From a virus, in the IMG/VR virus record IMGVR_UViG_3300032323_001472, positions 1 to 24,762 of that record: 24,762 bases of DNA, one strand, 5' to 3'. The notes beneath the pieces are model-generated. The model was not told where the DNA came from. It ran no database searches and was given only the letters and a program-made list of their open reading frames with translations. Positions within the stretch are counted from its first letter, which is position 1; each line of letters begins with the position of its first letter. Shown here piece after piece: positions 2,643-24,658 of this stretch. The position numbers and the translations under genes were made by a program.

Positions 2643-3509
2643 ATGACAAAAATTCCAACCGGTTACGATTTACCAATGGACAGTAGTATGTCTGATGCTG
2701 ATATAAAGGCACAGTTAATGTCCGAACACAAACAAACTAATGTTAAAAAATCAAATTTCCCAACAGAGATTGTTCCTTTGCCATCAAAGGGATTGGTTTA
2801 TCCAGAAGGACATCCACTTGCAAGTGGAACGATAGAAATGAAATATATGACTGCACGTGAAGAAGATATTTTGACTTCACAAAACCTAATCAAACAAGGT
2901 GCAGTTTTAGATAAGTTGTTTGAGTCTTTGATTGTCACTCCAATGAATTATTCTGATTTATATGTTGGTGATAAGAATGCAATTATGGTTGCTGCTAGAA
3001 TACTTGGTTATGGAAAAGACTATACAGTAGAAATAGATGATCCATTTTCTCCAGGAAATAAACAAAAAGTAACAATAGATTTAACTCAAATTGAGCACAA
3101 GGAGGTCGATTATTCGCCATTTGAGAACAGAGCAGCCGAATTTGATTACCAATTACCACTTTCAAGCCGATACGTTACTTTCAGACTTATGACACATAAG
3201 ATTGAAAAAGAAATCCAAGCTGAAATAAAGAGTATGAATAAAACACTTGTTAAAACAGGAATAGATAAGGAATTGACAACGAGACTCAAACATCTTATTG
3301 TTGCAGTTGATGGTGAACGCGGTAGAGCAACAGTTGATAATTTTGTAGACAATGAATTATTTGCTGCAGATTCAAGGGCATTAAGAATGTATATGAGAGA
3401 TTTTGCTCCAGATTTGGATATGTCCTTTACATTTGTATCAGATGCTACCGGCGAGGTAAAGGAGATGGATGTACCGCTTGAGGTATCATTTTTTTGGCCT
3501 AACACCTGA
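2643..3509 (+). CDS. Baseplate hub protein, T4 gp26-like
   Basis: This is a probable baseplate hub or assembly protein of 288 residues. Recognisable features are the segment IVPLPSKGLVYPEGHPLASG (about residues 43-62), followed by IEMKYMTAREEDILTSQNLI and a helical VLDKLFESLI stretch. This order (LPS-G, Y-P, MT-EE-IL) is typical of the T4 gp26-like baseplate family. The C-terminus ends in EVSFFWPNT, also a familiar ending in that family. Start ATG 2643 has a TAGGA site 7 bases upstream. The last 41 bases overlap the next ORF in another frame, across a run of seven T. Given the position just before the tape measure, this gene could be the upstream partner of a frameshifted tail-assembly chaperone pair. 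Family call moderate to good; the exact role in assembly is inferred. Confidence 0.72.
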   Translation: MTKIPTGYDLPMDSSMSDADIKAQLMSEHKQTNVKKSNFPTEIVPLPSKGLVYPEGHPLASGTIEMKYMTAREEDILTSQNLIKQGAVLDKLFESLIVTPMNYSDLYVGDKNAIMVAARILGYGKDYTVEIDDPFSPGNKQKVTIDLTQIEHKEVDYSPFENRAAEFDYQLPLSSRYVTFRLMTHKIEKEIQAEIKSMNKTLVKTGIDKELTTRLKHLIVAVDGERGRATVDNFVDNELFAADSRALRMYMRDFAPDLDMSFTFVSDATGEVKEMDVPLEVSFFWPNT

Positions 3510-3723
3510 TTATAAACTAGGTTTACACGAGGAAATATTTTCTCTATGTTACTACGGAAAGGGTGGATTTACTTGGGAAGAAGTATATTCATTGCCAATA
3601 CATTTGAGGAGATATTATCTAAAACAAGTTCAGAAGGCAGTAGATGAAAAGAACAAAGTGGAACAAGCGGAAGTTTCTAAAACAAAAGTTCCTAAATTTA
3701 CAAAACCGGCTGGAAGAAAATAA
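3469..3723 (+). CDS. Small overlapping ORF before tape measure; possible tail-assembly chaperone
   Basis: An 84-codon ORF that overlaps the end of the gp26-like gene by 41 bases, in the +1 frame relative to it. The distinctive part is GLTPDYKLGLHEEIFSLCYY, then a GKGGFTWEEVYSLPIHLRRY segment and a charged lysine-rich tail. This looks like a small conserved phage helical protein, but I cannot name its family. The first seven codons (MYRLRYH) lie wholly within the overlap and look like a frame by-product. It may start independently at ATG 3469, where AAAGGAG stands 4 bases upstream (a short spacing), or it may be made only as an extension of the gp26-like protein by a +1 or -2 shift at the seven T bases at 3489-3495. 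It ends just before a terminator and the tape measure gene. Confidence 0.7.
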   Translation: MYRLRYHFFGLTPDYKLGLHEEIFSLCYYGKGGFTWEEVYSLPIHLRRYYLKQVQKAVDEKNKVEQAEVSKTKVPKFTKPAGRK

Positions 3724-3786: not shown

Positions 3787-6700
3787 ATGGCAACGGATAA
3801 TGAAAAAAAATTAGAAGAACAGATAAAAGTTTTATCACAAGAGCGAAAAAAACTTGAGGCAGATATTCTTGAATTAAAAAATCAAATAGAATCTACCGAG
3901 AAAAAATCTGTTGCAAATTTAGAAAAAATAATAAAATTGGAAGCTCTACGTCTTGATAGTGTAGAGAAAGAAGAAGAAATACGCAAAAAAATTGAAAAAA
4001 TAGACAAAGATAGTGAAAAGAGAACCGAGAAAGCAAAAAAGGCACAAGATGATTCGTTAAAAGGATTTGAAAGTCAAACTGATTATACTGATACATTAGA
4101 AAGACAAATGAAATCAGTATCATACCTTATGAAAGACTTTGGGCAAACTTCTTTTAAAACACAAGCAGTTCTTTCAACGTTAAGTTCAGATGCACAGAAA
4201 AATGCTGCAAGTATGGGATTGACGGTTAATATTGCGGAAAAATTTGGAAAAACATTAGAATTAGTTGCATCGAATACAAGACAGGGGAAAATATACACAG
4301 AAGATTTTAAAGACGCATTATCAGATACAGTGGATTTAGCATCAGAAGTTGAATCATTAGAATCTGCTATGGTAAAATCATCTGCTGATGCATTAAAAGG
4401 TAAGGCGAGTATAGTGGATACCGATAAAACTCGTGAATCTATACTTGTTAAGATGTATGAGATTGAAAATGGAAATAACGATTTAACAAAAGAAGAAAAG
4501 AAAATTCAGTTGGACGCATTGGGTATTCTGATAAAAAAAATTGGAGAACTTGATAAAGTAAACGAAAAAATATCAGAACAAAATAGTCAGATGGCCGGAT
4601 TAAACTCACTTAGTAGTAAAGTTGGTGATACAATGGGTGGGTGGATTAGGAAAGTTCCAGGCGGAGATAATATTGCTAAGATATTGAACATAGATAAAAC
4701 TGCGGAAAATGTAAACAAAAAAATGTCAAAAGCTTTCACATCCGCAGTTGGTGCCATAAAAGGTAAAAATAGTCCTGCTGAAGCGTTTAAGGACGCAAGT
4801 GCAGCTCTTGGTGGTATGATTACTATGGCACCGAAATTGATTGCAGGATTGGGATTAGGTCTGATTACGGGTGCAGCTCAATTTCTTATTGGTGCATTTA
4901 ATGCAGTTGATCAGGAAGTTTCGGAAATAGGTAAAGAATTTGGTTATTCAAGAAAAGAAGCAATCGCATTGAGAGATACTTCTATTGATATTGCATCTGA
5001 AATGAATGTTGTTGGTGTAAATTCAAAAGAAGTTGTTAAAAGTATAGGTTTGGCTTCCGATATGATGGGCGGTCTTGATATGGGAGCAAGACTTGCTAGT
5101 GGAAATCCTGCCGCTAAACAATTAGTAAAAGATACCGCTTTGCTGACAGAAAAATTCCAAATGAGTGCAGATGAGGTAAAATCAATGCACGACCTTTCAA
5201 CTCTGACTGGTAAAAGTATGGGTGAACTTGCTGGAACTGCTGCTAAAATGGGTGGTGGTTTGATGACAAGTAAACAGGCAATGAAAGCACTAGCGAGTGT
5301 TCCCAAAGAAGTTGCAGTTGCATTTAAAGGAATACCTGCACAATTAGCTGCTGCCGCTCAAAAGGCAAAATTATTAGGACATGATTTGAAAAAGGTTCAA
5401 GATATTGGTGACGGTATGTTGGATATTGAATCATCACTCCAAAAAGAAATGGAGGCAAGGGCAATAACTGGTAAAAATATTCAATTAGATAAGGCACGTG
5501 AATTGGCTTTGAATGGTGATATAGCTGGTCTTCAAGACGAATTGTTGAAACAGTCTGGATCATTACAAGATTTCCAAAAGATGAATAGATTGCAACAAAA
5601 GTCAATGGCTGACGCAATGGGTATGTCTGTGGAAGAAATGACAACCATGCTCACAAATGCACAGAAGTTAAAAGATTTGGGTGTATCACAAAAAAAGATG
5701 GATGAACTTCAGGCGAAAAGTGCAGCAGAATTAAGGGCAATGAATAAAGACGGTATGAATGAGGCAATGAAAGGGGAAATCGAAAGAATGGCAAAGGAAA
5801 AGGAATCTGCTGCTATAAAAGAAAGAATGGCCAATATTGTTCAAAAACTTCAAGAAAAATTATCAAAATTGCTATCACCAATTCTTGAAATGGTTCATGG
5901 TATGCTAGATGCTGCCGAAGCCGGTGGTGGTTTCGATAGTATACTAGAATCTGTATCTGGTATTATAAAGGGAATAATACCCATAGTTAAAACTCTTTTT
6001 GGCGTTGTTTCATCATTGATAGGTCCTGTAACTTCTGTTTTAGGATTTTTCGGTGGTATTGGAAAAGAAACGGAGGCAATAACTGGTGGTGTTGCTGATG
6101 CAGGTAAGGCAGCCGAAGCGAGTCAAGCTGGATTTGGTGGTATATTGAAAGCCGTAACTTTAATAGGTGGTGCTTTTGCAGGAAAGGCACTGCTTGGAAA
6201 AGGTCTGGATATGATGAAAGAAAAGGCATCAGAATTGGGTAATACCTTAAAAGAAAAGGTTGCCGATAAAGCAGGTGACATGGGTAAAAAACTACTTGGA
6301 ATGGGTAAGAAAATGAAAGCACCAAAAATGCCAAAAATACCAGGAGCAAAAGCTGCTGGTGGAAAGGGTGGTGGTTTCATGGATTCACTTGTTCAGGCAT
6401 TCAATAAAATAGATGGTAAAAAAATGATTCAAGGTGCAGCTGCATTAGTTATTCTCGCGGCTGCTTTATGGATTACTGCTAAAGCCGTTCAAGAATTTAT
6501 GAAAGTTAATTGGGATGCAATGGCAAAAGCAGGTGTTGCTCTTCTTGGATTAGTAGGCATAGCGTATCTTATGTCAAAGGCAAGTACGGAAATGATTAAA
6601 GGTGCAGCTGCAATGTTAATACTTGGGGTTGCATTAGGTATCGTTGGACTTGCACTACAAACATTTATGACTGTAAAATGGGAAGACATGGCAAAAGCCG

Positions 6701-7695
6701 GTGTTGCTCTGCTTGCATTAGTTGGAATCGCTGCACTAATAGGTGCATTTATTGCACCTATAATGATGGGTGCAGCTGCTCTCATAGTATTATCCGGTGG
6801 ATTTTTAATATTTGCTGCCGGAATGTGGGTGTTGAGTAAGGCAATGGAAGGGTTTATTCCAATGATGGAAACACTTTTCACCGGAATCAGTAGTATCATT
6901 ACCACAATCGGTGATGCCATTGTAAAGATAATAGAGGCCGTAACTGCAGGTATTTCAACGGTAGTTGATAAGTTGATGGGATTAACAACACTCGATGGTG
7001 AAAATCTACTAAAAATTGCTGCAGGTATTACTGCATTAGGAGTTGCACTTGCAGGATTTGGTGCAGGTAGTGGTGCAGGTGCGATTGCAGATGGTATAGG
7101 TAGTGCTATTGGCGGATTACTTGGTGGTGACAGTCCATTGAGTCAATTACAAACAATAATGAAAGATATACAGCCGGAAAAATTATCTGGAATCGCGAAG
7201 GCAATAGTAGAATTATCTGCTGCAATGACTGCACTTTCAAACACATTGCAGAATGTAAACTTCGATAAGTTAGAAGAAGTTATGAGTGCAGTTGATAAAG
7301 CCGGTGGTGGTGGTAGTAAAATAGGTTCTATTGTAAGTAGTATTGGTTCATTGTTTGGTGGTGGTGATGACGGTGGTGCATCTGCTACACCCGCAAAGGC
7401 CGGTGGTGGAATTTCCACCGTAGGTCAAACAACCGGTGGTATAGGTTCTTCTGCTGGACCAGGTGGAACAGGTGGAACCGGATTAGGACAATCAGGTGGA
7501 GCCGGTGGTGCAGGTGGTGGTGATGGTGTTGAGAAAAAACTTGATCAGTTAATATCAATAATGTCTTCGATGGCAAGTGCACCAACTATTATCAAAATTG
7601 GTGATAAAACAGTTGAAGAAATAAATGGTAGAGCTGATTTCAAAAAGGCGTATCAAATAGGAATAGATAACAGTTATGGAAAGTCCCTACAATAA
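3787..7695 (+). CDS. Tape measure protein
   Basis: This sets tail length and is packed inside the tube until ejection. It has 1302 residues; at about 0.15 nm per residue this predicts a tail near 195 nm, about twice T4. Residues 1-105 are a highly charged coiled coil. Residues 344-374 are a hydrophobic Gly/Ala segment. A long helical Met/Lys/Ala-rich region runs to about 700, with a second hydrophobic block at about 727-758. A basic KAPKMPKIPGAK linker is followed by tandem hydrophobic 56-58-residue repeats from about 879. A Gly-rich linker with many GGTGG-type codons covers 1173-1247. The short C-terminal tail (VEKKLDQLISIMSSMA) is helical. Length, helical composition, hydrophobic blocks and position after the tube and candidate chaperone genes all support the call. 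Start ATG 3787 has only a weak GGA upstream. No peptidase or lysozyme domain was recognised. Confidence 0.9.
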   Translation: MATDNEKKLEEQIKVLSQERKKLEADILELKNQIESTEKKSVANLEKIIKLEALRLDSVEKEEEIRKKIEKIDKDSEKRTEKAKKAQDDSLKGFESQTDYTDTLERQMKSVSYLMKDFGQTSFKTQAVLSTLSSDAQKNAASMGLTVNIAEKFGKTLELVASNTRQGKIYTEDFKDALSDTVDLASEVESLESAMVKSSADALKGKASIVDTDKTRESILVKMYEIENGNNDLTKEEKKIQLDALGILIKKIGELDKVNEKISEQNSQMAGLNSLSSKVGDTMGGWIRKVPGGDNIAKILNIDKTAENVNKKMSKAFTSAVGAIKGKNSPAEAFKDASAALGGMITMAPKLIAGLGLGLITGAAQFLIGAFNAVDQEVSEIGKEFGYSRKEAIALRDTSIDIASEMNVVGVNSKEVVKSIGLASDMMGGLDMGARLASGNPAAKQLVKDTALLTEKFQMSADEVKSMHDLSTLTGKSMGELAGTAAKMGGGLMTSKQAMKALASVPKEVAVAFKGIPAQLAAAAQKAKLLGHDLKKVQDIGDGMLDIESSLQKEMEARAITGKNIQLDKARELALNGDIAGLQDELLKQSGSLQDFQKMNRLQQKSMADAMGMSVEEMTTMLTNAQKLKDLGVSQKKMDELQAKSAAELRAMNKDGMNEAMKGEIERMAKEKESAAIKERMANIVQKLQEKLSKLLSPILEMVHGMLDAAEAGGGFDSILESVSGIIKGIIPIVKTLFGVVSSLIGPVTSVLGFFGGIGKETEAITGGVADAGKAAEASQAGFGGILKAVTLIGGAFAGKALLGKGLDMMKEKASELGNTLKEKVADKAGDMGKKLLGMGKKMKAPKMPKIPGAKAAGGKGGGFMDSLVQAFNKIDGKKMIQGAAALVILAAALWITAKAVQEFMKVNWDAMAKAGVALLGLVGIAYLMSKASTEMIKGAAAMLILGVALGIVGLALQTFMTVKWEDMAKAGVALLALVGIAALIGAFIAPIMMGAAALIVLSGGFLIFAAGMWVLSKAMEGFIPMMETLFTGISSIITTIGDAIVKIIEAVTAGISTVVDKLMGLTTLDGENLLKIAAGITALGVALAGFGAGSGAGAIADGIGSAIGGLLGGDSPLSQLQTIMKDIQPEKLSGIAKAIVELSAAMTALSNTLQNVNFDKLEEVMSAVDKAGGGGSKIGSIVSSIGSLFGGGDDGGASATPAKAGGGISTVGQTTGGIGSSAGPGGTGGTGLGQSGGAGGAGGGDGVEKKLDQLISIMSSMASAPTIIKIGDKTVEEINGRADFKKAYQIGIDNSYGKSLQ
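6421..6860 (+). repeat. In-frame hydrophobic tandem repeat in the tape measure
   Basis: Copies begin at 6421 (56 codons), 6589 (58 codons) and 6763 (partial, degenerate). Copies one and two share a GAAA-hydrophobic stretch, then W-(D/E)-(A/D)-MAKAGVALL. They encode paired membrane-like helices. Confidence 0.8.
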
Positions 7696-7736: not shown

Positions 7737-10700
7737 ATGTCATTATTGGACCTAAAATCAGATTTGTCAAAATATCGTTCTGAACCTTCTCGTGAAGAAA
7801 AAAATGAACCACAAAACTCTGTTGCGAAATCTTCAACAAATTTTGCAACAGTTCAACCTATTACGGATTCCCTTTTAAGTAAGATACCTAATATAAAAAA
7901 ACCAACTTCAAAAGATATAGTTAGTAAATTAAATTCAACAAATCTTGATAATATCAAAGATCCCAAAAAAACGGAACCTTTGGAAAAAAGATTAAACACA
8001 ACAAAATTAGATGATATTGTAAAAAAAGATTTTGATGAATTGTTATTAAACTCTATATCAGAGTTTTCACCGTCTGCTATTGATATAAATTCTTATAATT
8101 TAGGAAGACAACCTATTGAAAAAATTGTATCAAAATTTGATGATATAAAACAGACAGATTTTGTTAGCTCACTTGATAAATCAAATATTCTTGTTTTGAA
8201 GAGCGATCAAGGAACAAATAATAACACATCCGATATTGAAATAACATCAAAACCTTTTCAATTCGATAGAACAAAAACTTCTCCGAATATAACAGAAAAT
8301 CCAGAAGATGCAACAGATAATATAGTGATACCAAAATTGTCTATAACTGGAAAACCATTATCAATAGACAGACAAAAACAATCCGTTATAATAGATAAAG
8401 ACTTGGTATCACCCATAAACAACATAATAAGTCCAGATATTTCATTACAAAGAACTAATTTAACTTTTAATAGAATTGTAGAATCTCCAAACATAGTAAA
8501 AGATACTATAAAAGAAGGTCTGGTTGTTGATCCAAAAATAAGTGTTTTTAGAATTGAACAAGGAACAAATCATTTCAAAGATAATAGTGATTTGAATCCA
8601 GATAAACCACAAATATATTTCATACAATCATCATTGTTGGCGGCAAGAAAACCACGGTTGGAACCTGATAATGTAAGATACAATCAGATTTCAAATCAAT
8701 TATCTGACAATAGTGATTTTAATATAGATGATATAATACGAACAAATCCATCTGGAAGAAATGAAGATCCAACTCGTTCACCATACTCAACCGATGGAAC
8801 ACGAGCAGTTGATTATTTTGGAAATTCTTATTTTAGAGGATTCAGTATTCGTCAATCAAATACTGAATATAGTAATTTACCATCTGCTTATGGATGGAAA
8901 GGTGGTCGTGGTGATGCACCTACCGTTAATTTTGTTACAGATGTTAATGGTAGAGGTTTTGAAAAATTTGCTAGAATCAGAGAAACTTCATACAAAACTA
9001 ATTCTTCTGAACTTGGATTCGTTACGATTCAAAGAGTTAATTTCTTTGATATTAAAAAAGAGTATGCAACTGATGGATTTACACCGTTTCCTGTTGCATT
9101 AAGAACAAGTTACATTAAAGACTCATCCAAATTTACTTGGATTGGTCCAAGAGACAGGTCTCCTGCCGTAAATTATTTTGATATTGAAGCACAAAAAACA
9201 ACTGCTGGATTTCATGGATTTGCTCAAGTATATGATACAAAGTATATTGCAGAATCTTCCATATATGATTGGGACGGTAAAAGAGAAAATGCTCCATCTA
9301 TAAATTACTTTGATATAAATGGAAGGAATACAACCGCTGGTTTTGAAAAGTTTGCACAGATATACGATACAAAATATATTCCTGAATCATCGATATATGA
9401 TTGGGATGGAAAGCGTGAAAATGCCCCATCTGTAAATTATTTTGATTTGAATGTTCAAAATACAAATGCAGGATTCCATAATTTTGCTCAACTATATGAT
9501 ACGAAGTATATTCCAGAATCATCAAGATTTGATTGGGATGGTGCTAGAGTTGATGCTCCAACGGTTAATTATTTTGATATAAATACACAACATACAACTG
9601 TTGGTTTCCATTCTTTTGCTCAAAAATATGATACGAAGTATATTCCAGAATCATCGGAATTTGATTGGGACGGTGCTAGAGGAGATGCACCATCGGTGGA
9701 TTATTTTGATTTTTCAAAAAGAAATACTACACAAGGATTTCATACGTTTGCACAAAAGTTAATAACAAAGTATGTACCAGAATCTTCCGATTATGATTGG
9801 GATGGAGTTAGACAAAATGCACCATCCGTTGATTACTTCGATATTTCAAAGTCAAATACTACCGTTGGTTTCCATACGTTTGCTCCACATTATGAAACAA
9901 AGTATGTACCGGAGTCATCCAGATTTGATTGGGATGGATCAAGAGGTAATGCACCATCTGTAAATTATTTTGATACAATAGAAACAAATAGAACCGAGCT
10001 TTTCAGAGGAAGATTTAGATCAAAAACAACTGCTGGTTTCCATACTTTCGCTCAAAGATATGATACGAAGTATGTACCAGAGTCATCGGAATTTGATTGG
10101 GATGGTGTTAGATTACAGGCACCGTCTGTGAATTATTTTGATACATCAAAAACAAATAAAACAATATCTGAATTTCCTGACGGATTTAGTGCAAAAACAA
10201 CTGCTGGTTTCCACACATTTGCTCGTATGTTAGATACTAAGTATATTCCGGATTCTTCACGATACGATTGGAATGGTAAGGCAGATAGACGTAATTTTAG
10301 AAATCCAATACCTGTTGATTTCTTTGACAATACGGCAGCGGTAAATAAATACGGAAATAAATTGTTTATAAATGTTCCAGTTGATTATAGAGGCGGTGTT
10401 ACCATTGGAACAAAGGACAAGTATGTTCAAAAAACATTTGGTGGTTTCCATATATTTGCTCAGTTATATGATTCAAAATATGTACCAGAATCATCAAGAT
10501 TTGATTGGGATGGCACAAAAACTAATGCCCCTACTGTAAACTATTTTGATACAGCACAATCTAACAGAACAACATCGGAAGAAAACTCATTACTTGCAGA
10601 CTTTAATAAACCAAAACAGTTTGTTGCAAAAACAACTGCTGGTTTTCATATATTTGCACAAAAATATGATTCCAAATACATAAATTATGCTTCAATTTAC

Positions 10701-13700
10701 GATTGGGATGGTGTTGCTGATAGAACTGGCTTTACAAATCCAATACCAGTTGATTTCTTTGATACTGGAAACACAAATAGAACAGAAACCGAGTTTCCAA
10801 ATGGATTTGTACCACACACGAAAGAAGGTTTCCACATATTTGCACAAAAATATGATTCAAAGTATGTTGATTATTCTTCAATTTACGATTGGGACGGTAT
10901 TGCAGACAGATTGGAGTTCAAAAATCCAATACCTGTTGATTTCTTCGATAATAATGTAGTTTATTCCGCATATCAAGATAGATTTGGTATAAAAATTGCA
11001 ACAAAAGATGCTTATGTTCAAAAAACAATAGCCGGATTCCATAATTTTGCTCAGTTATATGATTCAAAGTATATTCCAGAGGCATCAAGATTTGATTGGG
11101 ATGGTTTTAAACAAAATGCTCCTGCGGTAAATTACTTTGATAATCCATTATTTTCTCGTCAAACAAATGTAGTAAATGCAGTTGTAAAACTGGCAGCAAC
11201 AGATTCTTATGTTCAAAAAACATTCGGTGGGTTTGATACATTTATAGACAAATATGACAGTAGATATGTTCCAGATTCATCATTATACGATTGGGATGGT
11301 AAAAGACAAGATGCTCCTGTTGTAAATTTCTTCGATATAGATTTTAAGAAAACAACAGTCGGATTCCATAAGTTTGCACAAAAATTAGATACAAAATATG
11401 TTCCGGGTTCATCTGGCTTTGATTGGGATGGTCCAAAAATAAATGCACCTGCTGTTGATTATTTCCCAAATGTTTATGGTGATGGGTTTATAACATTTGC
11501 TCGCGAATTGAACAGTAGATTGAATTTAGAGTCTTCAAGATTTGATTGGGATGGTAAACGATCAAATGCTCCTGGAATAAATTATTTTCAAAAGTTAAAA
11601 CCAAAAACAGAATATGCTATAAGACTTATTGCAAATTACCTTGTACCACAAAGTGATATTGTAATTCAACAAGGTGATCCACAATATCCTGAATTTTTTA
11701 ATATAATCGGAATGGATAAAGGATTTATACCATTTAATACTAATAAAACTATAACTGCATATTCACCGTATCTGACTGAGTTCTCACCCTCAGCCAGATT
11801 AGATAAGTATACAAACTTTTTCCCTGCACCAAATAATTACACACTTTCTGGTCCTATATTAAATGCTACTGGATTAGAAGCTACTGATCCATCAACGTTG
11901 GGAATGGTAACTGGATTATTAACTGGTATCGGTGGTTTCATACCATATCTTGGCACGTTAAATAGACCAACACAGGATCCTTCTGTTACTGAAATTGGTG
12001 CTACAGATTTTGTAACCGGTTTAAATGCAACACAACAGACACAACTTGCTATAAATAGAGGGTTTGCACCGAATGCATCTAATTCATATAGTTCACCTGT
12101 TGTAAAAAGATCCTCTATAAGAACAAAAACGCTTGGAACTAAACTTTCTTTGATAGATGCTAAAAGAAAAACAACTTCATTTTTCTCATGGGCAAGATGG
12201 CCACTTGGTCAAGACTTGGGTTTTATCAAAAATATGTCATTATTTCGTGGTACATTATATCCTATAATTGGACCACATTTTAGTACAAGAGATATTCCCG
12301 ATACCACAATACAATCTATTATAGCAAATATAGATTTTTCAAATTTGGGTGGATTGAGTGGTGGAAGTGTGCCATCGGTTGCTTCACTTGGAAATGTTAA
12401 TGTAGGAATATCTACAACTACGAATAATGGAACAAGTTTTAATCTTCAAGTAGAACATGGTCGTGGTGATGCAAATATACAACGATTAAATTCATTTGGT
12501 TTTGGTCCAGATAATTTGGGACAAGGACAGGCATTTTTAGATGCACTTTTACCACATTCTCTCGGTAGACGCCCTTGGTCTGGAAAAATTTCAAACGGTT
12601 TGTATTCATCATTACAAAACCAATATCCAATTTATACACACGATGTTTCTTCTAGATTTTATGGTTATCGTAGACCAAATAATTCCAATACTGATGCACC
12701 ATATACACCATATGATGAAGAATTATCAAGACGTGGTAATGCTGTAGCAAATGATCCTTCAATATGGCGTACTGGAAAAGGTGGACCATATGAAAGACAA
12801 CTAAAAAATGGTTGGTGGGTTGAACCTGGTATGCCACAGGATGGTGATTACAGTCCAGGTAGCGTTAGAAATCCAAACCGTAATTTTGTGGGAATGGGAC
12901 AGACGGATCAAAATGCTATAACTGGTAACTTTAAAATCAGAGCATCGTCAGAAAATTTAGTTAGAAAATATGGATATATTGGTAGATGGGCATTAGACAC
13001 TGGTGAGTTGGCTAAACAATATACAAAATTTGATCTTCGTAAAGATTCTTACAATACAGATTTAATATGGTCACAACCATATTATGTATCAGATATAGGT
13101 GCAAATTGGGGTTGGGGTGCCCTTGCGTGTGGAAGATTTAGCCCAACAACTCAATTAGATAGAAGACTTGCAGATTTACAGAGAATCGGTAAATTCATGT
13201 CATCTGGTAAAGGTTTAATGTGGACATTGAAGCAGTTTGGTATGCAGTTTATGAATCCATTTGTAGACACATGGAGCGAACCATTTGATTTATACCAAGA
13301 TTTACAAAGAACAAATGTAAATCAAACTGGTGTAAACTCCACACGAGATATTGTTGCTACAAATCAGGCACTATTGCCCAATTTCTTTGGAAGGAGTGAT
13401 GGATCTGGTGGATTAAAGTCGATTAGAGGAAACGCTACAATATTTATGCCACCGCCAACAATGATATACAATCCATTATCAACGATAATAAGTACCGTAT
13501 TGAGTGGAATTGGTCATGATCAAAGACATATAAAATCATCGGCATTTGGTTTTCAAGGTGCACAACAATGGACACCGAATTATAGAGAACAAATTGCAAA
13601 AGAAGTGTTTGCAAACAGTAATCCAGAGAATGTATTATCGTCAGTATCATCTCGGACTGGACCTGCAGGAACTGGTTTACAAAATTTGGGTGCACAGGGT

Positions 13701-16250
13701 ACACGAAGATTCCCAAATGACTTAAACCAACACTATGAGGCACAAACAACTTATAGAAACAGAACTGGATTCTCAACACAAAATATCGGTGGTGTTGATT
13801 ATAGAGAAAAAACATTTCATAGAAAACAAAATGGTGACTGGTTAATTCCAGTTGATGAAACGGTTGATTGGTGGACGCTTGGTGGTGCTAATGGTATGGG
13901 TGGTGCTACTCCAGGTGGTTCCGGAAACGTTGAAGCAACAAATTACTTTGAATCACCACAGAAAGCTGATCCTGTAACACGTCAGAGAAGATACAACAGA
14001 TTGATTGGTTTGATGAAAGAAATGTTACCACAATCATTTTCTCCAATGCTGTCACCACAGCGTGATTCTGCATTTGCAACAACCGGTCCTGTCCCTGCAC
14101 AGGCAGGTGTCACTGGAAATACTGGAATAACTGATCCAAATAGTGAATTGAGGATATTGGCAAACTCGTCTTTGATGAAGACACATCAAAATAGATTACG
14201 CGATGGGGAAATAATAAGAATTTCTTCAAACTTTGGTGGACCTGGATCGTTTCTTGGTTTAGGTGGAACCACTATAAATAAATCAAGTCATAAGTTATTA
14301 GGAACATATACAACTATTCCTACACTTGATAAAGATAAAATATTAGACGGAACACAAAGAGAAACATTTTTTGCTAAGGACTTCTACGGAACATATAGTG
14401 ATAGATTACGTGGAATAAATGAGATAGAGGTTTCATCCGATGGATCTAAAGCAGAATTGGGTGGTGATTTAAGAACACTTGTTAATGCATTAGATTCTAG
14501 TAAACCCACTCTTTCTTATCAAACCGATGGTGCATTTAAAGATCCGTACGGCACAAATTCTGTTCTATTGGGTGAACAAGTTACAATACAACCTATAACT
14601 CAAATGCGTTTGAATAAAATAAAACCATTTGATTTTCTATATCCAAATCCTTTGAATAGATTATCAAGGCCGAATGTAATGGATGAATTTAGGGATCCAA
14701 ATAATACTATGAGTGATGGTCCAGATGCATCTATACAGTCTATCCAAAACAGACAACTATTCGCAACAACACCATATCAATACATGGAAAGATTTAACGG
14801 AGCCGGAAGAGCATTAGTTGGGGGTGTTGATAGATCATCTGCTTGGAATGCAAATTGGAGAAAGGGTCGTGGTGCAACTAAATTTAATGATTTTAGATGG
14901 GACACTGAAAATTTTGGAAATGGTGGTGCAATAGCATATGCAACAAGTCCTGAATCCTTGCCAAATTGGACGGGATTAGTTAATAAACAATTCTCCACAC
15001 ACCCGGCTATAAGTAATTACGCAAATACAAATTTAGAAGAAACATTTGGATTTTATGAAAATGCCGGTGACGCTGGTAATGATAGAGGTAATCCAAGAAA
15101 ATCAAATATTGAATATGCAAAAGTAACATCATTCAATCCTGCACTTCCAGGTGCTCGATTCATCAAACCCGCAACTAATGGTCAGTATGCAACATATCCT
15201 GTTCCTGTTAAAAAGCCAAATTCTAATAATTTTAGAGGCGATAGAATAAACATAATAGATTATAAGCGGGCAAACTTTGCAATAACAAAAGATTTGGTAT
15301 ACGAAATGGGTGAGTTTGATAACCCAACGCTTCAAGGACGAAATGATTTGATAGAATTTTATTTCTCAAGTGTAGTTTTACGAGGACACAACTACTGTCC
15401 AGCGGAAGTTATAGTATTTAGAGCAACTTTTGATAGTATAACGGATAACCATAAACCATCGTGGAGTCCTGTAAAATATATGGGCAGAGGTGATCCACTC
15501 TATACTTACGATGGATATGAAAGAGATGTGAGCTTTAATTTTACGGTTCACATTGGATCTCGCGATGAAATGAAAGCATCATGGAGGAAATTAAACTACT
15601 TAGCAACATGGACGATGCCAGAATATACTGGTGCAGGATATATTCGTGCTCCATTTTGTAGATTGAATATCGGTAATTTGTTTAGAAAAATGCCAGGATA
15701 TATCAGTAATCTAAGTTACACATTTGACAATCAAGGTGGAACATGGGAAACTGCAAAATTGCAGGGTGATAAATATACAAATGCAACTGATAAAACAATA
15801 ATCGATGAATCTAGACCTGGCGTATTGGAGTTGCCAAAAACTATACAAGTTTCCGTTGGATTTGTTCCGATAGGTGTTTATCGTCCTGAAAGATATGGAG
15901 TTGTTTATCCATTGTACGATGATAGAGTTGATAGTAATGATAATCCAGAAAATGGTTTGATACCACAAAGAGAAGATGTTGTTAATTGGTTTAAAACATT
16001 TGATAACACCAGTGTACAAACTGATCCAGATGCTCAAGAGTACCTTGCTGTTCCACCTATTGTATACAAGCCAACACCAGGTGCGGCAAAGGCGGTGGTT
16101 CTTTCACAAAATGGACTTACAAATATACCATTAGATTCTGGCAATCTTGGTCCTGGCGAATATGGTCCAGCTAATCCTAATGCGCCACAAGGTCCTCAAT
16201 TATACGAACAAGTTATGTTGGAGGCAGATGCACCAGCACCTACACCTTAA
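7737..16250 (+). CDS. Giant repeat-containing baseplate/tail structural protein with C-terminal tube-initiator-like domain
   Basis: This 2837-residue protein takes up about a third of the window. Residues 1-300 are Asn/Asp/Ser/Lys-rich, low-complexity and loosely repetitive. Residues 357-1285 hold 18 degenerate repeats around GFHTFAQKYDTKY, VPESSRFDWDG and NAPSVNYFD. Residues 1286-2500 are rich in Gly, Asn, Tyr and Trp and include KGLMWTLKQFGMQFMNPF (about 1824-1841) and GGPGSFLGLGGTTI (about 2167-2180), patterns I associate with large structural proteins of T4-related phages. Residues about 2505-2740 include FRATFDSITDNHKPSW, YMGRGDPLYTYDGYERDVSF and LNYLATWTMPEYTGAGYIRA, resembling baseplate tube-initiator proteins of the gp48/gp54 type. 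No enzyme motif or signal peptide is seen. Start ATG 7737 has AAAAGGA 6 bases upstream. Position between tape measure and gp53-like gene fits a baseplate component. The C-terminal domain call is moderate; repeat function is unknown. Confidence 0.8.
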   Translation: MSLLDLKSDLSKYRSEPSREEKNEPQNSVAKSSTNFATVQPITDSLLSKIPNIKKPTSKDIVSKLNSTNLDNIKDPKKTEPLEKRLNTTKLDDIVKKDFDELLLNSISEFSPSAIDINSYNLGRQPIEKIVSKFDDIKQTDFVSSLDKSNILVLKSDQGTNNNTSDIEITSKPFQFDRTKTSPNITENPEDATDNIVIPKLSITGKPLSIDRQKQSVIIDKDLVSPINNIISPDISLQRTNLTFNRIVESPNIVKDTIKEGLVVDPKISVFRIEQGTNHFKDNSDLNPDKPQIYFIQSSLLAARKPRLEPDNVRYNQISNQLSDNSDFNIDDIIRTNPSGRNEDPTRSPYSTDGTRAVDYFGNSYFRGFSIRQSNTEYSNLPSAYGWKGGRGDAPTVNFVTDVNGRGFEKFARIRETSYKTNSSELGFVTIQRVNFFDIKKEYATDGFTPFPVALRTSYIKDSSKFTWIGPRDRSPAVNYFDIEAQKTTAGFHGFAQVYDTKYIAESSIYDWDGKRENAPSINYFDINGRNTTAGFEKFAQIYDTKYIPESSIYDWDGKRENAPSVNYFDLNVQNTNAGFHNFAQLYDTKYIPESSRFDWDGARVDAPTVNYFDINTQHTTVGFHSFAQKYDTKYIPESSEFDWDGARGDAPSVDYFDFSKRNTTQGFHTFAQKLITKYVPESSDYDWDGVRQNAPSVDYFDISKSNTTVGFHTFAPHYETKYVPESSRFDWDGSRGNAPSVNYFDTIETNRTELFRGRFRSKTTAGFHTFAQRYDTKYVPESSEFDWDGVRLQAPSVNYFDTSKTNKTISEFPDGFSAKTTAGFHTFARMLDTKYIPDSSRYDWNGKADRRNFRNPIPVDFFDNTAAVNKYGNKLFINVPVDYRGGVTIGTKDKYVQKTFGGFHIFAQLYDSKYVPESSRFDWDGTKTNAPTVNYFDTAQSNRTTSEENSLLADFNKPKQFVAKTTAGFHIFAQKYDSKYINYASIYDWDGVADRTGFTNPIPVDFFDTGNTNRTETEFPNGFVPHTKEGFHIFAQKYDSKYVDYSSIYDWDGIADRLEFKNPIPVDFFDNNVVYSAYQDRFGIKIATKDAYVQKTIAGFHNFAQLYDSKYIPEASRFDWDGFKQNAPAVNYFDNPLFSRQTNVVNAVVKLAATDSYVQKTFGGFDTFIDKYDSRYVPDSSLYDWDGKRQDAPVVNFFDIDFKKTTVGFHKFAQKLDTKYVPGSSGFDWDGPKINAPAVDYFPNVYGDGFITFARELNSRLNLESSRFDWDGKRSNAPGINYFQKLKPKTEYAIRLIANYLVPQSDIVIQQGDPQYPEFFNIIGMDKGFIPFNTNKTITAYSPYLTEFSPSARLDKYTNFFPAPNNYTLSGPILNATGLEATDPSTLGMVTGLLTGIGGFIPYLGTLNRPTQDPSVTEIGATDFVTGLNATQQTQLAINRGFAPNASNSYSSPVVKRSSIRTKTLGTKLSLIDAKRKTTSFFSWARWPLGQDLGFIKNMSLFRGTLYPIIGPHFSTRDIPDTTIQSIIANIDFSNLGGLSGGSVPSVASLGNVNVGISTTTNNGTSFNLQVEHGRGDANIQRLNSFGFGPDNLGQGQAFLDALLPHSLGRRPWSGKISNGLYSSLQNQYPIYTHDVSSRFYGYRRPNNSNTDAPYTPYDEELSRRGNAVANDPSIWRTGKGGPYERQLKNGWWVEPGMPQDGDYSPGSVRNPNRNFVGMGQTDQNAITGNFKIRASSENLVRKYGYIGRWALDTGELAKQYTKFDLRKDSYNTDLIWSQPYYVSDIGANWGWGALACGRFSPTTQLDRRLADLQRIGKFMSSGKGLMWTLKQFGMQFMNPFVDTWSEPFDLYQDLQRTNVNQTGVNSTRDIVATNQALLPNFFGRSDGSGGLKSIRGNATIFMPPPTMIYNPLSTIISTVLSGIGHDQRHIKSSAFGFQGAQQWTPNYREQIAKEVFANSNPENVLSSVSSRTGPAGTGLQNLGAQGTRRFPNDLNQHYEAQTTYRNRTGFSTQNIGGVDYREKTFHRKQNGDWLIPVDETVDWWTLGGANGMGGATPGGSGNVEATNYFESPQKADPVTRQRRYNRLIGLMKEMLPQSFSPMLSPQRDSAFATTGPVPAQAGVTGNTGITDPNSELRILANSSLMKTHQNRLRDGEIIRISSNFGGPGSFLGLGGTTINKSSHKLLGTYTTIPTLDKDKILDGTQRETFFAKDFYGTYSDRLRGINEIEVSSDGSKAELGGDLRTLVNALDSSKPTLSYQTDGAFKDPYGTNSVLLGEQVTIQPITQMRLNKIKPFDFLYPNPLNRLSRPNVMDEFRDPNNTMSDGPDASIQSIQNRQLFATTPYQYMERFNGAGRALVGGVDRSSAWNANWRKGRGATKFNDFRWDTENFGNGGAIAYATSPESLPNWTGLVNKQFSTHPAISNYANTNLEETFGFYENAGDAGNDRGNPRKSNIEYAKVTSFNPALPGARFIKPATNGQYATYPVPVKKPNSNNFRGDRINIIDYKRANFAITKDLVYEMGEFDNPTLQGRNDLIEFYFSSVVLRGHNYCPAEVIVFRATFDSITDNHKPSWSPVKYMGRGDPLYTYDGYERDVSFNFTVHIGSRDEMKASWRKLNYLATWTMPEYTGAGYIRAPFCRLNIGNLFRKMPGYISNLSYTFDNQGGTWETAKLQGDKYTNATDKTIIDESRPGVLELPKTIQVSVGFVPIGVYRPERYGVVYPLYDDRVDSNDNPENGLIPQREDVVNWFKTFDNTSVQTDPDAQEYLAVPPIVYKPTPGAAKAVVLSQNGLTNIPLDSGNLGPGEYGPANPNAPQGPQLYEQVMLEADAPAPTP
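8805..11591 (+). repeat. 18 degenerate in-frame repeats, 44-residue core
   Basis: Eighteen protein-level repeats cover residues 357-1285 of the giant protein. Six consecutive units at 9183-9974 are exactly 132 bases (44 codons) each. Later units are lengthened to 56-74 codons by variable insertions at the unit junction. Conserved positions are GF-x-x-FA, Y-D-(T/S)-(K/R)-Y, a Ser pair, DWDG, a Pro near AP, and (N/D)(Y/F)FD. Outer units (the first three and last two) are the most divergent. Confidence 0.95.
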
Positions 16251-21176: not shown

Positions 21177-21503
21177 ATGAAGAAAATAAAACTAAAAAGT
21201 ATAATAGATGAAGTTACTGTTAGAGTAATAAATACATTGAAAGAAAGATACTCGATAAATGAGGGTAGTGGATTCGATACTATATTTGATAGTCTAAAAC
21301 AAAAATTGAAAAATATATCAATGTTACCAGATAATGTGATAGATGTATCACAATATAAGGAACACGAAGTTATAAACGCATTAAAGGATATAGGTTACGT
21401 CTATAAAAAGCCGATGGGTGGTAAGTTACACTTTTTTAATAAAAAAACAAGTATAAGCATATATCTGATTCAAAATGAATTAAAAATAACACTTCTTCCG
21501 TGA
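21177..21503 (+). CDS. Small protein with putative capsid-targeting N-terminus (I)
   Basis: A 108-residue protein, first of four consecutive genes with similar N-terminal tags. Residues 1-29 are basic and amphipathic-helical and end in SINE before Gly30. I-N-E fits the [L/I]-x-E cleavage signal of T4 gp21-type prohead proteases; IIDE12 is a second candidate. The predicted mature part (about 79 residues) has a helix, then EVINALKDIGYVYKKPMGGK, a beta hairpin and KTSISIYLIQNELKITLL. This resembles a compact alpha/beta domain; a HicA-like double-stranded-RNA-binding fold is conceivable but not supported by any diagnostic residue. The Shine-Dalgarno is weak (GGA, 9 bases before ATG). The next gene starts 7 bases after its stop. 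Packaging into the head is an inference from the tag. Confidence 0.75.
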   Translation: MKKIKLKSIIDEVTVRVINTLKERYSINEGSGFDTIFDSLKQKLKNISMLPDNVIDVSQYKEHEVINALKDIGYVYKKPMGGKLHFFNKKTSISIYLIQNELKITLLP

Positions 21504-21510
21504 GAACTTT

Positions 21511-22113
21511 ATGAAAAATAAAAAGAAAAAACTACAAGAATCCATTAGTGAAACGGCCATTAGTCCTTTGAGCTACATAGTTTTCATTGACGCTGGTAAT
21601 GTTATTGGCGGAAAGAGTGGTTATTTAAAGATACTATTTCAAAACGAAACCACGAATACCATAACATCATGGTTTAGAAATATGGTAAAAGATGACAATT
21701 ATAAGAAAAATAAAGACAAGTTGATTGCTATAGCTTCAAGATTTTCAAATATACCATCTTTGAAAGTATTGTTCACATCACTTTCTAAACTAAAATCTTC
21801 TTCATTCTCACAAGAAGAAAGAGAACAACAAGAGGCAGATATTCAAAGTTTGATTCAAAAAGTAAGTGTATTTATAAAAAGAAGATTAACCGAAGATGAC
21901 GATATTATTTTGAAAGAACTTTTATCCGATATAAATGCAGTTGGTGAAAATATATTGAATAAAATAGATTCTGAAATAGAATCCAATGAAATAAAATCTG
22001 ATGATGCAGAGAAAACTCCAAAAAAAGAAGTTAAGGTAAATGAACGTATTAAAAATAAACTACGTAAAAAGATAAAAGAGATTATTAGAACTCATTTGCT
22101 TAATAATAGATGA
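21511..22113 (+). CDS. Small protein with putative capsid-targeting N-terminus (II)
   Basis: A 200-residue protein of unknown family, second in the tagged cluster. Its N-terminus is very basic and ends KKLQE at Glu10 before Ser11, a short L-x-E prohead-protease-like site comparable in length to the ten-residue leaders of T4 internal proteins. The body begins with a hydrophobic strand (SYIVFIDAGNVIGG), then a helical, Lys/Ser/Glu-rich region with QEEREQQEADIQSLIQKV, and ends in an extended basic helix (ERIKNKLRKKIKEIIRTHLL), which could bind nucleic acid. There are no cysteines and no catalytic motif I can name. The ribosome site is weak (GAGA). It starts 7 bases after the previous stop and is followed after 9 bases by the third member. 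Confidence 0.75.
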   Translation: MKNKKKKLQESISETAISPLSYIVFIDAGNVIGGKSGYLKILFQNETTNTITSWFRNMVKDDNYKKNKDKLIAIASRFSNIPSLKVLFTSLSKLKSSSFSQEEREQQEADIQSLIQKVSVFIKRRLTEDDDIILKELLSDINAVGENILNKIDSEIESNEIKSDDAEKTPKKEVKVNERIKNKLRKKIKEIIRTHLLNNR

Positions 22114-22122
22114 TGTGACAAA

Positions 22123-22971
22123 ATGAAAACAAATGGATTATTGCTAAAAAATCTTCTGTATCAAGTTAGATCAAAATTAAATGAAGACAAATCAGAAGCT
22201 GAATTGAAACGAATTTTAAAAAAAGACTATGTTAGTTTTGTAAATGACTTAGGTGATTTCATCAAAGATCCTAAATTTGTAGATGCAATAAAATCTCTTT
22301 CAAGTAATATTCCAGTTAAAACAAGCAATATTGATGTTGCTTGTAAAGATTTGAAACCGAGTCAAAATGAAGTTGTTTTAGCTAACTCTTTGAGTTATCC
22401 GATGAAAGATCCATCAGGAGTAGATGCGGCTCTGAGTGGTGGACCAGTTTCTCCTGGAGGAAGACTCGTTGTTACTGGTGGTGATGGTAAATTTATAATT
22501 GACGGACATCACAGATGGTCACAGGTGTATTGTATAAATCCTGAAGCTAAGATAAAATGCAAAGATTTGCCCGATATAAAAAATCCTATGAAGGCATTAA
22601 AGGCAACACAATTAGGAATAGGTGCGGAACTGGGAACTATTCCAAAGGCAGAAGGTGGTGGTGTTAATTTATTTGAAATAGGTGAAAATCAATTAAAAAA
22701 ATATGTAATAGAGAATATACAAGACTCTGTTATAGAAGTTTTTAAAAAACACGATAAAGGTAACAACGCAGAATCAGTTGCAGACTATATTTGGGATAAT
22801 GTTAAAAAATTACAAGTTGATAATACTCCAGTAGATGATGCACCAGTTCGTAATGTTATGCCACAGACGGATGATGCACCGCAATGGGTTGATAATACAT
22901 TTAACGTTGAAAAAATACCAGAGACAGTTATACATAGATTAAAACAGTTGGTTAAATACAATAATAAATAA
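22123..22971 (+). CDS. ParB/sulfiredoxin-like domain protein with putative capsid-targeting N-terminus (III)
   Basis: A 282-residue protein, third in the tagged cluster. The N-terminal helix (LLLKNLLYQVRSKLNE) ends in L-N-E21, a prohead-protease-like site. The central region has GGPVSPGGRLVVTGGDGK, then FIIDGHHRW with D127-W132, matching the DGHHR(W/Y) signature of the ParB/sulfiredoxin superfamily, whose members bind or hydrolyse nucleotides or cut DNA. Upstream, LKPSQNEVVLANSLSYPM could supply the helix and strand that precede the signature in that fold. The C-terminal 90 residues are acidic and Asp/Asn/Pro-rich with a final basic helix (VIHRLKQLVKYNN). The start ATG 22123 has no clear Shine-Dalgarno. 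Domain assignment good; enzymatic activity and delivery into the host are inferences. Confidence 0.72.
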   Translation: MKTNGLLLKNLLYQVRSKLNEDKSEAELKRILKKDYVSFVNDLGDFIKDPKFVDAIKSLSSNIPVKTSNIDVACKDLKPSQNEVVLANSLSYPMKDPSGVDAALSGGPVSPGGRLVVTGGDGKFIIDGHHRWSQVYCINPEAKIKCKDLPDIKNPMKALKATQLGIGAELGTIPKAEGGGVNLFEIGENQLKKYVIENIQDSVIEVFKKHDKGNNAESVADYIWDNVKKLQVDNTPVDDAPVRNVMPQTDDAPQWVDNTFNVEKIPETVIHRLKQLVKYNNK

Positions 22972-22984
22972 TGTAGGAGTTTTT

Positions 22985-23725
22985 ATGAAAAAGAAAATTG
23001 TGGTAAAGGATTTGGTTGAAGAAAATCGAAAATTACAAGATACATTCAAAAAAAGATTGAATGAGGGGTTTTTTGACAATGTATTGAAGAAAGTGGGTAT
23101 GGGTGAACCGGAACAAGTGAAACAGAAAAAAGTTTCAACTATGACTCCGAAAGAAAAAGAATTGTATGATAAGGCAAAGGCAGCCGCTGGAACTGCTGCG
23201 GAAGATGCTGCTTGGGCAGAATATGAGGCGGAAAGATATGGTGGTGGGGATAAATCACCTGTTCTTGGAAAACAAGATACACCTATGGCACAAGAACTTC
23301 AAAAGAAAACAGTTGAAGACTTGGCAAAAGATATGAAACTTGAATTTTCAAAGATTAAAATGAATTATGACGGAACAATAGACTACAATGGAACGTTTGA
23401 ATTTGATCCAACGATTCATTTAGATGATAAAAATGGTTTATTATTACCTATGAATAAGGTTAGTGTTTTGGCATTTTCACCAAATACAAAAGGTAATCCT
23501 TGGGAATTACATAAAGGTATGCCTCAAAAGGCAGACCAAATTAGTTATAAAGCCAATGATGGTGAACATACGTGGTTCAATAGTATTGGTAGAGATAAAC
23601 TTGCTGACATGATTAGGAAAAATTTGAATCCTCCTGGTAAGATTGAAATTCCATATAAATTTGATTATGAAATCAAAACACCAGCTGGTCGTTCTGATGA
23701 TTACGATGATTACATGACAAGGTGA
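22985..23725 (+). CDS. Protein with putative capsid-targeting N-terminus (IV)
   Basis: A 246-residue protein, last of the tagged cluster, with the best ribosome site of the four (GTAGGAG, 6 bases before ATG). The N-terminus is basic and helical and ends KKRLNE27 before GFFDN; L-N-E followed by Gly fits a prohead-protease cut site. Residues 50-80 are Ala/Glu/Lys-rich helix (KAKAAAGTAAEDAAWAEYEA). The C-terminal half is a beta-rich domain with KMNYDGTIDYNGTFEFDPTI, a PWELHKGMPQKAD loop and a terminal strand ending YDDYMTR. I do not recognise the family. It has no cysteine or membrane segment. Transcription probably ends at the UUCG hairpin 28 bases downstream. A virion-internal role is inferred from the tag and cluster. 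Confidence 0.75.
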   Translation: MKKKIVVKDLVEENRKLQDTFKKRLNEGFFDNVLKKVGMGEPEQVKQKKVSTMTPKEKELYDKAKAAAGTAAEDAAWAEYEAERYGGGDKSPVLGKQDTPMAQELQKKTVEDLAKDMKLEFSKIKMNYDGTIDYNGTFEFDPTIHLDDKNGLLLPMNKVSVLAFSPNTKGNPWELHKGMPQKADQISYKANDGEHTWFNSIGRDKLADMIRKNLNPPGKIEIPYKFDYEIKTPAGRSDDYDDYMTR

Positions 23726-23902: not shown

Positions 23903-24658
23903 ATGAGTATTAACCTCGATGCAATCAAGAGTCGTTTGAACTCTTTGAAAAACACAAACAATCGCACATCAAACATTTGGAAACCCGATCCAGGTGAAAC
24001 CCAAATCCGTATTGCCCCTTATATCCACAACAGAGAAAATCCTTTCATCGAATTGTATTTCCATTACAATATCGGTAAACGTTCTATTCTTTCACCTGTA
24101 TCATTTGGTCGTCCTGATCCAATCGTTGAGTTTGCTGAGAAGTTGAAGCAAACTGGAGATAAAGAAGATTGGGTGATGGGTAGAAAACTCGAACCAAAAA
24201 TGAGAGTGTATGCACCTGTTATCATTCGTGGTCAAGAAAATGAAGGTGTTAAATTTTGGGGATTTGGTAAACAAGTCTATGAAGAACTACTTGCTTTCTT
24301 TGTTGATCCCGATTACGGCGATTTGTCTGATCCTAAATCCGGTCGTGATATTGTTGTTACAGTTAAGTCACCAGAAGAAGCTGGTAAAACTTATGCAGAA
24401 ACAACTATTCGTGTTAAACCAAAAGAAACCCCAATCACAGAATCTCAGGATGTTCTTGAAAAAATTAAGACACAACCACAGATTACTGAATTGTTTCCTG
24501 AGCCATCATATGATGATTTGAAAATTCAATTACAAACTTGGATGGGTACTTCGTCACAAGAAGAACCTGCTGCTGATTTGAATTACAAACAAGAAAAGAC
24601 CGAGAAACCCGCATCATCTGCTGATGATATTGGCGTTACATTTGATGACCTATTTTAA
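23903..24658 (+). CDS. gp32: Single-stranded DNA-binding protein (T4 gp32-like)
   Basis: A 251-residue protein that coats single-stranded DNA during replication, recombination and repair. It has the gp32 layout: a short N-terminal region (LNSLKNTNNRTSNIWKP) for cooperative contacts, an OB-fold core with IRIAPYIHNRENPFIELYFH, YAPVIIRGQENEGVKFWGFG and a DPDYGDLSDPKSGRDI loop typical of T4-like SSBs, and an acidic C-terminal tail ending DDIGVTFDDLF, the usual docking site for partner enzymes. It is shorter than T4 gp32 (301) and contains no cysteine, so the zinc-binding site of T4 gp32 is absent. Start ATG 23903 has TTTGGAG 9 bases upstream. The next gene follows 12 bases after the stop. The 177-base upstream gap holds a terminator and possible promoters. 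Confidence 0.9.
   Translation: MSINLDAIKSRLNSLKNTNNRTSNIWKPDPGETQIRIAPYIHNRENPFIELYFHYNIGKRSILSPVSFGRPDPIVEFAEKLKQTGDKEDWVMGRKLEPKMRVYAPVIIRGQENEGVKFWGFGKQVYEELLAFFVDPDYGDLSDPKSGRDIVVTVKSPEEAGKTYAETTIRVKPKETPITESQDVLEKIKTQPQITELFPEPSYDDLKIQLQTWMGTSSQEEPAADLNYKQEKTEKPASSADDIGVTFDDLF

Follow-up and report, generated by a model that had tools for sequence, protein, structure and literature searches.

The question raised by this locus is why four consecutive genes should each begin with a short leader ending in a hydrophobic residue, any residue and glutamate, and whether such leaders could direct the proteins into a phage head and be removed there, as is the case in T4. The locus lies in a 24.8 kb virus record (the window, i.e. 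the whole stretch of DNA analyzed) of an uncultured, T4-like contractile-tailed phage, which holds tail sheath, tail tube, tape measure and baseplate genes and, after them, a gene for a gp32-type protein. The TTG start of the sheath ORF (260-1945) is probably an artefact, since the homologues are 812-817 aa long and the record starts inside the gene. A 2837-residue protein encoded at 7737-16250 carries many KYxPESSxxDWDGxRxxAPxVNYFD-type repeats and gave no PHROG match.

The four genes, all on the + strand, are designated A (ORF at 21177), B (21511), C (22123) and D (22985) and are separated by gaps of 7, 9 and 13 bases, with a further 177 bases between the end of D and the gene of the gp32-type single-strand DNA-binding protein (23903..24658, + strand; Pfam gp32, 8e-11), the fixed right border of the locus. 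The leader of gene A (residues 1-29, 21177..21263) has a predicted cut at SINE29↓G (here and below, the arrow marks where a cut would fall) and precedes a 79-residue body (21264..21503), which in the AlphaFold model adopts a compact alpha/beta fold. In gene B, a leader of 10 residues (21511..21540) with a predicted cut at KLQE10↓S is followed by the body (residues 11-178, 21541..22044) and by a basic C-terminal tail after VNE178 (22045..22113), conserved in sequence, which may be cut off as a second propeptide. The leader of gene C (residues 1-21, 22123..22185; predicted cut KLNE21↓D) and that of gene D (residues 1-27, 22985..23065; predicted cut RLNE27↓G), the latter of the KDLVxE[GN]R type, precede bodies at 22186..22971 and 23066..23725, respectively. 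The ORFs lie exactly where the original prediction had placed them, as do the motif ends SINE29, KLQE10, KLNE21 and RLNE27; in all four the residue at P3 is L or I, and the one after the motif is G, S or D.

A bare [LI]xE is expected by chance within the first 30 residues of 19-39% of proteins, depending on the protein, and the joint chance of finding it in all four of A-D is 0.0044, a simple product for a set chosen post hoc. The same bare motif is also present in 2 of the 11 other window proteins checked, namely the one encoded at 3469-3723 and the tape-measure protein (3787-7695), so that the earlier statement that structural proteins elsewhere lack such tags holds for the leader and fails for the bare motif. 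Given the post hoc choice and these two further proteins, the motif alone is unconvincing. What exceeds chance is its conservation across relatives, for which sequences from viral contigs and from Mel-JY01, a cultured Microcystis phage, were compared; relatives of gene B were missed by a direct scan of the viral contigs and were found via the neighbouring genes.

In family A, the glutamate is present in 38/38 relatives and is the sole invariant column of the leader (E29 in the window), while [LIV]-x-E occurs in 37/38 and the cut is followed by S, A or G in 38/38; P3 is I, L, V or T, and 12 different residues occur between it and the invariant E. The corresponding figures for family B are 49/49 for E and 48/49 for [LIV]-x-E, and in the relatives of both families the leaders vary freely while the motif that ends them is nearly fixed. 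In family D the glutamate is retained in 18/18 relatives, P3 being L, V, M or I, and 27 of 39 family C members have the motif at a single aligned column, several of the others having it shifted by insertions or deletions. It has to be noted that P3 in the relatives is often V and in some D relatives M, which is outside the strict T4 [L/I]. At the level of all families, a loose conservation test returned E in 16/93 families versus 3-15 for other single residues and was too noisy, and it was replaced by tests demanding poorly conserved surroundings; these returned, for an E close to the N-terminus, 5, 8 and 11 families under three settings, as compared with 2, 3 and 8 for the best other residue tried, a control that is suggestive and not overwhelming.

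The leaders are also shared between proteins that otherwise have nothing in common. The gene D leader (KDLVxE[GN]R..., ending in hydrophobic-x-E) precedes eight body groups without mutual BLAST similarity, which bears out the expectation that relatives would carry one leader on unrelated bodies. A short MIKLKxxLxE-type tag (e.g. MIKLKDILKE) starts 19 of 715 protein families, whereas shuffling yields 3.2 +/- 1.9 families, with a maximum of 9 among 300 shuffles. Bodies carrying this or a similar tag include an alpha/beta-hydrolase, a zeta-toxin-like kinase and DUF7178 (all above cut-off), as well as weaker matches to ART-PolyVal, DHH and cytidylyltransferase. In a relative of 177 kb, tagged genes are grouped in an island (L241:3705-8767) that codes for a D-leader protein, a DUF2608 protein, a pair of ART-PolyVal-like proteins and one unknown. 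Elsewhere (L238:367-2658), a protein of 763 residues whose start is leader-like combines a weak cytidylyltransferase match with an ADP-ribosyltransferase-like stretch after VITE.

In the relatives, the gene order is A-B, a variable slot and the gp32-type SSB. A and B are found in nearly all of them and C and D come and go, that is, A and B are constant residents before gp32 and the remaining slots are exchanged cassettes. The slot holds a tagged hydrolase together with C in 39 loci, not all of them on separate contigs, a lipoprotein in 14, nothing in 10, D in 7 and C alone in 3, and C and D occur together only in the window. The 14 lipoproteins are predicted from a signal ending in LVTGC-S or similar, and their slots contain no tagged genes (e.g. 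L191:6044-6664). In Mel-JY01, B is fused behind a tagged domain that matches the S-AdoMet_lyase profile PF23780 at 40.0 bits (curated cut-off 28), with IINE↓S, the counterpart of the gene B leader site, at the junction, and a single-domain relative scores 41.9 bits; two other relatives encode a B-D fusion with a complete D-type leader in its middle. Motif sites between joined domains, as seen in Mel-JY01 and in the B-D fusions, are what a processed polyprotein would show. The SAM-lyase-family relatives carry different leaders, mostly ending in [LIM]xE before S or N; those of Campylobacter phages, of which IBB_35 encodes a distant homologue (FDG52_s5gp09), have F at P3, outside the motif.

A gp21-type protease (Peptidase_S77) was detected in 19 of the 36 related records, among them all six of at least 110 kb, and none in the 24.8 kb window, which is unsurprising in a fragment that lacks head genes, so that the protease of this phage is inferred from its relatives. 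Near its N-terminus the relatives' protease carries the motif (e.g. LIAE↓S), as does the scaffold (LEE before A or T), and their capsid protein has LI[DSAE]E↓[SA] near residue 62. Homologues of gene C lie within this head module, where they adjoin the protease gene or stand two genes after it, before the scaffold, or else directly follow the capsid gene. In Mel-JY01, a gene for ribosomal protein S21 (L129:9454-9681) is located between prohead protease and scaffold.

With regard to the bodies, the AlphaFold model of gene A places a helix at leader residues 3-24 and the cut site in a loop before the body, whose blocks from residue 31 on have pLDDT values of 86-96. A Foldseek search with this body returned no significant match; a HicA-like toxin, indicated by weak Foldseek hits, was rejected (no PF07927 match, hhalign probability 0.4%). 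The model of gene C is poor in its first 43 residues and has the cut site between helices 4-19 and 23-32. Its body, in which DGHHRW is invariant, is probably ParB/sulfiredoxin-like: a match named ParB/Sulfiredoxin was obtained from a viral library at 1.3e-15, and the best PDB fold hits are ParB, Noc and Atu1540, albeit weak ones (E 0.02 and worse). No ParB/sulfiredoxin sequence profile matched this body above cut-off, the ParBc_2 profile reaching 0.0019, below cut-off, with the Mel-JY01 homologue. The body of gene D gave no family match and no match in the phage collection, and solved structures searched by sequence with A, C and the SAM-lyase-family protein returned nothing significant. The tail of gene B, VNE-R[LI]KNKLRKKIKEI[IV]RT, is conserved among the relatives inspected. 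In Mel-JY01 (L129:39676-40962), the C-terminal tail MKITREQLKEKIRIIVKRVLNEAMK resembles an N-terminal leader placed at the C-terminus, and basic C-terminal tails lie at a VNE or LNE motif both there and in gene B (22045-22113).

The conservation of the motif, the sharing of leaders, the presence of the protease in relatives and the head-module context all point to the leaders of A-D being, very probably, T4-style capsid-targeting propeptides of different sequence that a protease removes. The original prediction of removable T4-style head-targeting leaders is supported to the extent that the relatives possess the protease, share leaders between unrelated bodies, and have the motif in their capsid protein, their scaffold and the protease itself. 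In the model proposed here, to which as a whole we would assign a probability of roughly 0.8, each protein would be synthesized late and bound to the prohead core by its basic helical leader, and during head maturation the gp21-type protease would cut after the E of [L/I/V]-x-E. The mature body would stay inside the head with the DNA; when a cell is infected, ejection would carry the free bodies out together with the genome, and they would act on the host ahead of phage gene expression. We infer packaging, cutting, ejection and early host action by analogy with the established T4 pathway, which fits every feature seen.

Could the motif nevertheless be a coincidence? An [LI]xE is common in short basic N-termini with many L, I, K and E residues, and the per-protein base rate, the two further window proteins with the motif and the narrow margin of the loose test would all suit such an explanation; chance is, however, highly improbable, as the exact position is kept across divergent relatives, unrelated bodies have leaders in common, and E reached 5 families in the stricter test, where no other residue tried exceeded 2. 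That the leaders serve docking or regulation at a target outside the head (membrane, polymerase or replisome), and merely happen to look like protease sites, is suggested by the proximity of the locus to gp32 and replication genes. A near-invariant [LIV]xE in otherwise varying leaders, followed in A by small residues, is not what this would lead one to expect, nor is the recurrence of the motif in protease, scaffold and capsid protein or the location of C homologues in the head module, which makes such a role improbable.

A different matter is whether A-D, although packaged and cut, serve head assembly as components of the core or scaffold and are not host effectors. Since C homologues occur between protease and scaffold, some of the set, C in particular, may indeed be head-core components, and the presence of A and B in nearly all relatives is unlike that of dispensable effectors. 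On the other hand, C and D come and go at the locus while A and B stay, and the same kind of leader is found at this very locus on an alpha/beta-hydrolase and on a SAM-lyase-family domain; for the set as a whole we regard an assembly role as rather unlikely.

Under the preferred reading of head-targeting propeptides, ejection of A-D with the DNA is reasonably likely. A counter-defence or host take-over function of one or more of the four bodies is put forward tentatively, at somewhat less than even odds; for the locus, anti-defence action is plausible in view of the tagged SAM-lyase-family protein of Mel-JY01 and the published role of the T3 SAM lyase. The earlier proposal that the proteins counter host defences is thus backed by association, through this protein and the similarly tagged ADP-ribosyltransferase-like proteins of relatives. 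A broader, and likewise tentative, possibility is that a widespread clade of T4-like phages loads exchangeable enzymes (SAM-lyase family, alpha/beta-hydrolase, ADP-ribosyltransferase-like, kinase, phosphoesterase-like and ParB-like) via modular leaders, some as polyproteins separated by the protease, and that some of them, including a virion-delivered SAM lyase, disarm methyl-dependent defences before phage gene expression. A literature search found no description of the leader system or locus in this clade; the principle is already known from T4. If correct, the rule of leader plus cut site would list the injected proteins of a large uncultured phage group from sequence alone, mark an exchange locus in which to seek new counter-defence proteins and show the principle of the T4 internal proteins at work in a clade whose leaders differ and whose cargo includes enzymes. 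For the cultured Mel-JY01 the predictions are exact: the new N-termini would be G33 in the A homologue (after ARINE32), S11 and S198 in the SAM-lyase-B fusion (after ILGE10 and IINE197, respectively) and I11 in the C homologue (after LLKE10), and the capsid protein would be cut after LISE near residue 60.

In T4, a leader targets the protein to the prohead core, gp21 cuts after [L/I]xE and the protein is ejected with the DNA (PMC9026906; PMC12373910); the injected IP1-3 each inhibit a different GmrSD restriction enzyme (PMC12373910; PMC9026906). Like A-D, IPI, IPII and IPIII combine a short N-terminal leader and [L/I]xE before a small residue with unrelated bodies, and T4 has a gp21-type protease, as do the relatives of the window phage. 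Examined as a control, T4 ipII and ipIII both start MKTYQEFIAE↓A, to which the leaders of A-D show no resemblance by inspection; they also reach up to 29 residues, and P3 may be V or M. Unlike the T4 genes, the A-D locus lies beside gp32, and its bodies have no detected relation to the IPs. Both ends of T4 Alt are cleaved (PMC9026906), which may hold for B too, and the relatives have similarly tagged ADP-ribosyltransferase-like proteins, although no ADP-ribosyltransferase was recognised among the bodies of A-D.

The SAM lyase of phage T3 acts against restriction-modification and BREX (PMC11580459). The Mel-JY01 locus protein is linked to it by its above-cut-off match to Pfam S-AdoMet_lyase, a likeness known from sequence, and differs in the predicted packaging leader on its domain; no SAM-lyase gene is present in the window. 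The ejection proteins of phiKZ and SPN3US form a bolus and are cut after glutamate by distant relatives of gp21 (PMC5694885; PMC10052503). A-D are likewise predicted to be cut after glutamate. The phiKZ-type cleavage motif has S at P3, from which the I, L, V or T of family A differs. Head-packaged enzymes have been widely proposed (PMC9503650), and in its content the present clade, with S21 in Mel-JY01, resembles the bS21-encoding freshwater phages (PMC9723584).
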